DNA from: Candidatus Acidulodesulfobacterium ferriphilum
GTDB taxonomy: Bacteria; SZUA-79; Acidulodesulfobacterales; Acidulodesulfobacteraceae
Assembly (NCBI GenBank): GCA_004195035.1
Contig: SGBD01000001.1
Coordinates: 416,368 to 480,367, forward strand
Length of the DNA stretch: 64,000 bases
Reading direction: 5' to 3'
The position numbers and the translations under genes are program-made. Shown here in pieces: positions 1,367 through 45,283 of this stretch (position 1 is its first letter; each line of letters starts with the position of its first letter). The notes beneath the pieces are model-generated. The model was not told the DNA's origin. It worked only from the letters and a program-made list of their open reading frames with translations, and made no database searches.

Positions 1367-1383
1367 AAAGAATTAATAATTAA

Positions 1384-1546
1384 CCAAAATTGCCGATAGA
1401 AACTCTTAAAGCTGCTTCAAAGTTTTATAAGCACTGGATTCCCGCCTACGCGGGAATGACTTTACGGGGATTAACTTCTCACCCAACGGGTGTCATTCCC
1501 GCGTAGGCGGGAATCCAGAAAAATAATTTTCTATCGGCAATTTTGG
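1384..1546. repeat. Nested inverted-repeat element, copy 1
   Basis: An outer 19-bp perfect inverted repeat (1384-1402 with 1528-1546, CCAAAATTGCCGATAGAAA) encloses an inner 27-bp perfect inverted repeat (1434-1460 with 1492-1518). Each inner arm contains a smaller palindrome, TTCCCGCCTACGCGGGAA. The inner arms resemble the widespread ATTCCC-N8-GGGAAT type repeat. A 7-bp direct repeat, AATTAAC (1378-1384 and 1548-1554), flanks it. The element fills the psd-pssA gap. A second copy with the same plan is at 44170-44336. It could be a non-autonomous mobile element or a transcribed hairpin; no transposase is nearby. Confidence 0.85.
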
Positions 1547-1574
1547 GAATTAACGCAATATACCAAATTTGCTA

Positions 1575-43070: not shown

Positions 43071-44120
43071 TCAATATAACATGACATCCTTTGCGGATTT
43101 TTTCGAAAAAACGGCTTCGCCGATTTCATAGGCTGCAAACCGCTTTGAATTTATATATTCAAAATCATTAATAAAATAAAGCGCATCATTTAAAACATTT
43201 TTATCGACCACTATGGCCAAACCTATGCCCGCATTAAATACTTTATAAAATTCGTTATCTTCAATCCCGCCCCTTTCCTTTAATATATTAAAAAGCTCCG
43301 GCATTTTCCATGAACTTTTATCTATTTTAGCCGTAATATTATCGGGTAAAATTCTAATGAGGTTTTCGGGTAATCCTCCCCCCGTTATATGGGCAATTCC
43401 TTTTATTTTGAAGTTTTTTTTAAGATTTTGTATAAGTTCGGAATAAATCATAGTGGGTTCCAACAGAACTTCTCCCGCGGTTTTGCCGGAGGATAGCAGA
43501 ACATCGTTAATATTTAGCCCCATAAGTTCAAATATTATTTTACGGGCTAAAGAATAACCGTTTGAATGCAAGCCGCTGGATGCTACGCCTATTATTTTGT
43601 CGCCTTCCTCGATATTAGAACCGTTAATAATTTCATCCTTTTCAACTATGCCTACGGCAAAGCCGGCTAAATCGTATTCATCTTTCAGGTAAAAAGAGGG
43701 CATTTCAGCCATCTCGCCCCCCAGAAGCGAACATTTCGCCAATTTACACCCCTCCGCTATCCCAGAGACGATTTCCGTAATAACATCGGGCTTTAAGTTC
43801 GAAGTGGATATGTAATCGAGAAAAAAAAGCGGTTTAGCTCCCAAACATGCAATATCGTTAACGCTCATCGCAACAAGGTCAACGCCTATAGTGTCGTGTT
43901 TATTTGCGGCAAAGGCGACCTTAAGTTTTGTTCCCACCCCGTCCGTTCCAGAAACCAGAACCGGATTTTTAAAATTGAGCTCGCCTATAGAAAATAACGA
44001 ACCGAATAAACCAAAGTTATCGATAACCCCTTTAGTGTAAGTGCTTTTCACTATCGAGGAAATATCAAAAACCGCTTTTTTTCCTGCCTCTATGTCAACA
44101 CCTGCGTTTTTATAATCCAT
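43071..44120 (-). CDS. purM: Phosphoribosylformylglycinamidine cyclo-ligase
   Basis: Closes the imidazole ring to give aminoimidazole ribotide. The ATP-grasp-like PurM fold shows VSGTDGVGTKLKVAF, DLVAMSVNDIACLGAKPLFF, LLGGEMAEMPSFY, YDLAGFAVGIVE, GVASSGLHSNGYSLAR and AHITGGGLPENL. 349 aa is normal. It precedes purN. Upstream, between purM and ftsY, lies a 167-bp inverted-repeat element, which may hold the promoter boundary or a terminator for ftsY. Confidence 0.96.
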   Translation of the reverse strand: MDYKNAGVDIEAGKKAVFDISSIVKSTYTKGVIDNFGLFGSLFSIGELNFKNPVLVSGTDGVGTKLKVAFAANKHDTIGVDLVAMSVNDIACLGAKPLFFLDYISTSNLKPDVITEIVSGIAEGCKLAKCSLLGGEMAEMPSFYLKDEYDLAGFAVGIVEKDEIINGSNIEEGDKIIGVASSGLHSNGYSLARKIIFELMGLNINDVLLSSGKTAGEVLLEPTMIYSELIQNLKKNFKIKGIAHITGGGLPENLIRILPDNITAKIDKSSWKMPELFNILKERGGIEDNEFYKVFNAGIGLAIVVDKNVLNDALYFINDFEYINSKRFAAYEIGEAVFSKKSAKDVMLY

Positions 44121-44169
44121 AAGTTTTTTATTTTATATTTTTTTTTAAAGCTTGTAAAGCAAATCAAAA

Positions 44170-44336
44170 TTCCTTAATCCCGATTTAGAAAATATTTATA
44201 AGTTTTAATACTAAATAACACTGGATTCCTGCCTACGCAGGAATGACAATTCGGTGATTTAAGATTTCACCAAGCGGGTGTCATTCCTGCGTAGGCAGGA
44301 ATCCAGAAAATAAATTTCTAAATCGGGATTAAGGAA
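44170..44336. repeat. Nested inverted-repeat element, copy 2
   Basis: An outer 22-bp perfect inverted repeat (44170-44191 with 44315-44336, core CCTTAATCCCGATTTAGAAA) encloses an inner perfect repeat around CTGGATTCCTGCCTACGCAG, with its partner at about 44280-44306. An 11-bp direct repeat AAATCAAAATT (44161-44171 and 44335-44345) flanks the element. The plan, spacing and the word CACTGGATTCC match copy 1 at 1384-1546, but the outer arms differ in sequence while remaining perfectly paired. It sits between ftsY and purM. Confidence 0.85.
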
Positions 44337-44350
44337 ATCAAAATTTTAAA

Positions 44351-45283
44351 TTAAAACAGCCCGTCCGCAAAAATTTCAGGGGAAAACTCGGATATTTTAT
44401 CGGGGGATTCACCAGTGCCTATAAATCTAACGGGTAAATTTAGCTTATGTATGATATCGATAATTATTCCGCCTTTTGCCGAACCGTCTAATTTTGTAAT
44501 GATAACCCCCGAAATATCTATAAGTTCTTTAAATTGCTCTACCTGAACCAGAGAGTTTTGCCCAAGGCTCGCATCTATTACAATAAATGTCTCGTCGGGA
44601 GGACGTCCGTTTGTTTTCGAGATAATCCTTTTTATTTTTGATAATTCCTCCATCAGATGCTTTTTATTATGAAGCCTTCCGGCGGTATCGATTATCAGCA
44701 GATTAAAATCTTTGTCTTTTAATTTTTGAACGGCGTCATGGGCAACGGATGCTGGGTCCTGGTTTTCTTTTCCGGATACCACATAGGCGCCCGTACGATT
44801 TCCCCAGACTTCCAATTGCTCTTTTCCCGCGGCTCTAAATGTGTCGCAGGCGGCAATAATAACCTTTTTACCCATGCCGGCATAATATTTGCCAAGCTTC
44901 CCCACGGTAGTGGTCTTCCCTACTCCGTTCACTCCGACAATCAAAAAAATGTTTTTTTCGTTGTTTATATTAATCCCCGGGAAATCTTTTGATATTTTGC
45001 TCTTAATCTCGTCTTTCAGGGCATCTTTAATTACGCCTTCCGTTAACGGGCTTTGCCCGTTAACGCCGCCTTTGGTTTTTGAGACTCGTTTTTTGATTCC
45101 CTCGACTATTTCGTTAGCCGTTTGGAAAGATATATCGGATAGGACTAATGCCTCTTCGAGCTTGTCTAAATCGGCAGGTTCAAGCTTGGTAAAACTAAAA
45201 ATGGAATTTACTTTTTCCGATAACGCCTCTTTCGTTTTTTTAAGACTGTCCTTAAAATTTTTAAATTTTTCAAATACTTTCAT
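44351..45283 (-). CDS. ftsY: Signal recognition particle receptor FtsY
   Basis: SRP-GTPase that docks ribosome-SRP complexes at the membrane. The NG domain is complete: N-domain helices, P-loop GVNGVGKTTTVGKLG, DTFRAAGKEQLEVW, DTAGRLHNKKHLMEEL, TKLDGSAKGG and the closing FIGTGESPDKISEFSPEIFA. The acidic A domain of E. coli FtsY is absent, giving a compact 310-aa form common in many bacteria. It is 46 bp downstream of smc, a conserved smc-ftsY pairing. Confidence 0.96.
   Translation of the reverse strand: MKVFEKFKNFKDSLKKTKEALSEKVNSIFSFTKLEPADLDKLEEALVLSDISFQTANEIVEGIKKRVSKTKGGVNGQSPLTEGVIKDALKDEIKSKISKDFPGININNEKNIFLIVGVNGVGKTTTVGKLGKYYAGMGKKVIIAACDTFRAAGKEQLEVWGNRTGAYVVSGKENQDPASVAHDAVQKLKDKDFNLLIIDTAGRLHNKKHLMEELSKIKRIISKTNGRPPDETFIVIDASLGQNSLVQVEQFKELIDISGVIITKLDGSAKGGIIIDIIHKLNLPVRFIGTGESPDKISEFSPEIFADGLF

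Follow-up and report, generated by a model that had tools for sequence, protein, structure and literature searches.

The window analysed here is a 64,000-nt stretch of the Candidatus Acidulodesulfobacterium ferriphilum genome (contig SGBD01000001.1). It contains two inverted-repeat elements, each located between two co-directional ORFs (560-1366 and 1575-2252 for element 1, 43071-44120 and 44351-45283 for element 2). An earlier note on this DNA described both elements and the inner arm that they share. Repeat finding in the window confirmed the two positions, and the inner motif occurred in 0 of 100 shuffled sequences. In element 1, the outer arms (1384-1402 and 1528-1546) pair at 19/19 positions and the inner arms (1434-1460 and 1492-1518) at 27/27; in element 2, the corresponding values are 22/22 for the outer arms (44170-44191 and 44315-44336) and 28/28 for the inner arms (44221-44248 and 44279-44306).

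The bounds of both elements were corrected. Element 1 spans 1383-1547 and is flanked by the target duplication AATTA (1378-1382 and 1548-1552), its two ends being mismatched at the outermost base (ACC.. versus CCC..). Element 2 spans 44172-44334 and is flanked by an 11-bp duplication (44161-44171 and 44335-44345), two bases of which are included in its 22-bp outer arm. The features of the two elements are as follows.

1378-1382, no strand: left target-site duplication AATTA of element 1, an exact 5-bp repeat directly adjoining the TIR
1383-1402, plus strand: left TIR of element 1, class A (ACCAAAATTGCCGATAGAAA), matching the TIR of an IS1380 transposon in the related genome G014
1403-1433, plus strand: long (L) subterminal arm of element 1, 31 nt
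1434-1460, minus strand: REP palindrome 1 of element 1 (CTGGATTCCCGC-CTAC-GCGGGAATGAC)
1461-1491, no strand: centre of element 1, with a small CACCC..GGGT hairpin
1492-1518, plus strand: REP palindrome 2 of element 1, inverted
1519-1527, plus strand: short (S) subterminal arm of element 1, 9 nt
1528-1547, minus strand: right TIR of element 1, class A
1548-1552, no strand: right target-site duplication AATTA of element 1
44161-44171, no strand: left 11-bp flanking duplication of element 2 (AAATCAAAATT), present as a single copy (AAATCAAATT) in the empty site of the related genome G002
44172-44191, plus strand: left TIR of element 2, class B variant (CCTTAATCCCGATTTAGAAA), matching the TIR of an IS1380 transposon in the related genome G011
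44192-44220, plus strand: long subterminal arm of element 2, 29 nt
44221-44247, minus strand: REP palindrome 1 of element 2 (T/A stem variant)
44248-44279, no strand: centre of element 2
44280-44306, plus strand: REP palindrome 2 of element 2, inverted
44307-44314, plus strand: short subterminal arm of element 2
44315-44334, minus strand: right TIR of element 2, class B variant
44335-44345, no strand: right 11-bp flanking duplication of element 2

The inner palindrome, ATTCCYGC-NNNN-GCRGGAAT-CCAG, has the features of a CGTC-1 REP, namely an 8-bp stem beginning with AT, a 4-nt loop and a CCA tail. The tag that defines CGTC-1 REPs is CGTC or TGTC; among the copies listed, the tagged end of the REP carries either TGTC or AGTC. 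When up to 3 mismatches are allowed, the inner arm is found at 94 forward and 89 reverse sites in the 1.87-Mb genome (G000, 7 contigs), compared with 1 and 0 sites in a reversed-sequence control. Full palindromes number 73 and 69 (forward and reverse, respectively). Both elements belong to one family, of which roughly 65-75 copies were catalogued in this genome. C3 and C5-C7 were largely read, as was approximately 60% of C4, while reading of C1 and C2 was mainly of the copies and the window. The fully read stretches contain 59 REPs, of which 46 are located within TIR-bounded elements and 9 lack any nearby TIR.

We defined a REP-anchored set of 63 inverted pairs, 53 of which have recognised 20-bp TIRs at both ends. 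All statistics on end classes, coupling and cores are based on these copies and not on loose TIR pairs; loose matching yielded probable mispairings at C2:33823, C2:250314, C4:113595, C3:47647 and C1:71778. Copies are organized as a target duplication of 5-6 bp, a 20-bp TIR, a subterminal arm, a 27-bp CGTC-type REP palindrome, a centre of approximately 32 nt, an inverted 27-bp REP, the other arm, the second TIR and the second duplication, and the canonical length is mostly 161-167 bp. The subterminal arms are unequal in nearly every copy (approximately 9 versus 30 nt). Relative to the arms, the centre lies in one orientation in 30 copies and in the other in 18, a distribution expected if recombination between the inverted REPs flips it. 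The family is short, multicopy and non-coding, no spanning ORF being present in the copies. Nearly all copies (51/53) are intergenic, whereas 78% of random window positions fall in ORFs.

REP sequences tend to agree within a copy. Loop words are the same in 46 of 63 copies (25.6 in permutations), 122 of 126 REPs have either C-G or T-A at one stem pair, and loop words private to a single copy, such as ATAC and CTTT, are present in both of its REPs. The two inner REPs have plausibly been homogenised within copies by local conversion between the inverted repeats; alternatively, the agreement could have been inherited from unsampled subfamilies.

The sequences of the outer arms define four TIR classes: A (CCCAAAATTGCCGATAGAAA), B (CCCAAATCCCGATTTAGAAA), C (CCTTAATCCTGCATTAGAAA, with a CAATAGAAA variant) and D (CCTTAAATCACCGTTAGAAA). 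Both ends belong to the same class in 48 of 53 copies (permutation mean 15.7, maximum 28), which bears out the earlier observation that the arms co-vary between copies. Exact pairing of the outer arms, as seen over 19 and 22 bp in the window, holds for those two copies and is atypical of the family, as evidenced by the finding of identical 20-bp ends in only 5 of the 48 same-class copies. Left-right mismatches average 2.29 in class A (2.29 permuted, p 0.61), 1.39 in class B (1.78 permuted, p 0.005), 1.88 in class C (2.31 permuted, p 0.06) and 2.0 in class D (2.8 permuted, p 0.10). Within-class substitutions are mostly uncoupled or nearly so, coupling being nil in A and weak in B, C and D. The genome-wide inner-arm search and covariation check proposed in the earlier note gave a divided answer: covariation is present at the class level and is close to nil within classes. 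Randomly diverged arms in other copies, which the note had named as the observation that would speak against its two explanations, are roughly what is found within TIR classes. The short arm, the long arm and the core appear homologous across classes. Cores are partly class-linked, the nearest neighbour being of the same class in 73% of cases (29% permuted).

The flanks identify the outer arms as element ends. Of the 48 same-class copies, 26 have exact 5-bp direct repeats adjoining the TIRs (chance 0.8%), 7 others an exact 6-bp repeat and one an 11-bp repeat. The close relative G002 has a clean, empty site for element 2, in which the duplicated sequence is present once. Its spacer corresponding to element 1 also has no insert, but divergence there obscures the junction. 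The exact 11-bp duplication of element 2 is atypical, since most other copies feature 5-6 bp. Some copies have chimeric ends, and two of these (C1:123003 and C4:102061) have exact 5-bp duplications; such chimeras may themselves be mobile or undergo conversion in situ. Exact 5-bp duplications were counted in 1 of 5 chimeric and 26 of 48 matched copies, a difference that is not significant (Fisher p 0.19). A search for swapped target-duplication partners among copies without a duplication revealed no reciprocal pair.

IS1380 transposons carrying these TIRs were identified in related genomes. They are approximately 1.61-1.63 kb long and are built around a transposase ORF. Class A TIRs are found in a transposon in G014 (L153), class B TIRs in a transposon in G011 (L142), and class D TIRs in transposons in G010 and G011 (L156, L159 and L164), both G011 class-D copies having broken frames. 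Class C has only an approximate cognate, a C-like IS in G009 (L155) with 3-4 mismatches of 20. The transposases, one of which was tested from each of the four groups, score 204-280 bits with the IS1380 model NF033539 (cut-off 180 bits). They share 24-37% identity between classes and 79-89% within class D. L155 is flanked on both sides by TTTTA and L164 by ATATTT. When the ends of MITEs and insertion sequences are laid side by side, only the TIRs match, and derivation of the body from an IS interior is not borne out.

The genome under study, which is 97% complete, yielded no IS1380 transposase by protein or family-model search, and examining the spacing of its class-A and class-B TIRs revealed no autonomous element. 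This non-autonomous family thus currently lacks a visible helper. The same architecture, with classes A-D, is found in other genera (G009, G011 and G019), and family-level relatives share the element. One short end was found in 21 stretches among named genomes (MAGs and Candidatus Acididesulfobacter diazotrophicus); together with the sharing of the element by family-level relatives, this points to an acid-mine-drainage lineage related to Ca. Acididesulfobacter. Within one family, species differ widely in their number of REP palindromes (0 to 142), an unevenness that suggests bursts and losses.

The outer arms are TIRs, that is, transposase recognition sites. Taken together, it is very likely that the elements are MITEs with IS1380-family TIRs that are moved in trans and combine one body with at least four alternative TIR classes. 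IS1380 transposases would move the copies in trans through the 20-bp TIRs, leaving the 5-6-bp duplications. Matched ends would be required, and kept, because a single transposase must act on both. End classes co-vary between copies because each TIR class belongs to a different IS1380 transposase, and since arm changes within a class are mostly uncompensated, the pairing of the arms reflects transposase recognition rather than an RNA fold or arm copying. TIR classes may have been swapped, or may have diverged, as copies recombined with one another at their common REP core, with selection for matched ends thereafter. The order of events aside, the best reading is an old family with ends that have either diverged or been exchanged with several IS1380 lineages. 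A stronger version, in which the REP-dimer body repeatedly takes its TIRs from the IS1380 lineage active at the time and so switches transposases while keeping its core, is possible though doubtful. If true, TIR switching would provide a possible route for the spread of CGTC REPs, which lack a dedicated transposase, in many bacteria.

The earlier note had offered two explanations for the paired arms, a folded shape maintained as in a transcribed hairpin and regeneration of the arms by copying. Neither finds support in the outer arms. A structured RNA whose long hairpin is kept by selection on pairing is in keeping with the predicted folds of the two window elements, which far exceed those of shuffled sequences (z -14.1 and -16.1), and with their position between co-directional genes, which would make co-transcription probable. 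However, two very strong inverted repeats fold well regardless of function, no Rfam match was found at the two loci, and the TIR ends coincide with the target-duplication boundaries. Within a TIR class, most point changes have no compensating change in the other arm, and in class A they are random, so that an RNA is a very unlikely explanation. Outer-arm covariation in repeats can stem from TIR classes and should not be taken for RNA structure. Templated copying, either by fold-back or by quasipalindrome correction, would regenerate the outer arms in each copy by using one end as the template for the other. The within-copy matching of REP loops and stems, private words included, and the weak coupling in class B are in its favour. 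It is nevertheless unlikely, since class A shows no coupling at all, few copies have identical ends, and the arms adjacent to the TIRs differ in both length and sequence, so that a fold-back copy would need to skip them.

Two further alternatives concern the REPs themselves. REP dimers might have inserted into pre-existing palindromes, for instance terminators, in which case the outer arms would be target sites; that they pair within a copy and differ between sites is consistent with this. This is an extremely improbable reading, as the arms recur in four classes that match IS TIRs, the 5-6-bp duplications flank the outer arms and not the REPs, and the empty G002 site of element 2 contains no palindrome. 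Alternatively, a RAYT (Y1) transposase could have moved the cores as REPINs, which by chance came to lie inside old MITEs; this scenario is highly improbable. The core does resemble a REPIN, as it is an inverted REP pair spaced by approximately 32 nt, but most REPs in the fully read stretches reside inside TIR-bounded elements. Mobilisation by RAYT was rejected: the genome has 0 matches to PF01797, and control genomes were positive.

As bacterial MITEs, the elements are ordinary in kind. Like NEMIS/Correia, RUP, Nezha and TIMEs (PMC3733652, PMC4133298), they are short, non-coding, multicopy, TIR-bounded, duplication-flanked and mostly intergenic, and their TIRs match those of autonomous transposons. 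In contrast to these bacterial MITEs, they have a REP-dimer core and a body not visibly derived from an IS interior, and a single body is combined with several TIR classes that correspond to different, divergent transposases, which is their notable feature. A literature search, with subscription papers mostly outside its range, returned no account of IS1380 MITEs having either REP cores or several TIR classes. Compared with IS1380-family insertion sequences (NF033539), the elements have the same 20-bp TIRs but no transposase and an unrelated interior; duplications are 5-6 bp here and 4-5 bp in the family (PMC12116815). QMITE2 of Coxiella burnetii (PMC5896051), in the available part of its description, is a MITE of approximately 190 bp with TIRs and flanking direct repeats, short versions of which are REP elements. 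Its direct repeats are 7-9 bp long, and that part of the description mentions neither IS1380 nor multiple TIR classes.

CGTC REPs have no dedicated transposase, and a broad spectrum of transposases has been suggested as possible movers (PMC3733652). In Halothiobacillus neapolitanus, CGTC-1 dimers also lie within longer palindromes and were read as insertions into palindromes, no REP-free target palindrome having been found (PMC3733652). Here, in contrast, the outer palindrome is formed by the element's own TIRs, and the duplications lie outside it. CGTC-1 dimers mostly have their tags outside (HH), and inward-tag (TT) dimers are rare for CGTC families (PMC3733652); by contrast, tags face inward in the 63 pairs analysed, which were selected in that arrangement. 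The present data offer a concrete mechanism for CGTC REP spread in one lineage, where REPs mostly reside inside mini-transposons with ends that match several divergent IS1380 transposases. Other lineages can be tested by looking for TIRs and duplications outside REP dimers.

Several copies deviate from the canonical size or organization. Smaller variants range from 45 to 108 bp and larger ones from 214 to 236 bp. The 214-236-bp copies (L033, L040, L041, L066, L074, L076 and L105) have, in place of one REP, a longer module that includes a nested compound hairpin (CTGGATTAACGCTTCGCTCTCG..CTCGTGAAGT..ACTTTCCCGC). A second palindrome, GTCCCAACCCGCTTCAGCGGG-like, replaces one REP in L056 (C1:710707), L079 (C3:94581) and L091. 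The copy at C3:84187 (L078) features two long arms rather than one long and one short arm. Short tandem REP arrays are found at C1:35412-35497 (L034, period 59) and C1:42857-42991 (L035, period 49), neither of which has recognised TIRs on both sides, and a 45-bp remnant at C7:50155-50199 (L105) consists only of two facing class-B TIRs.
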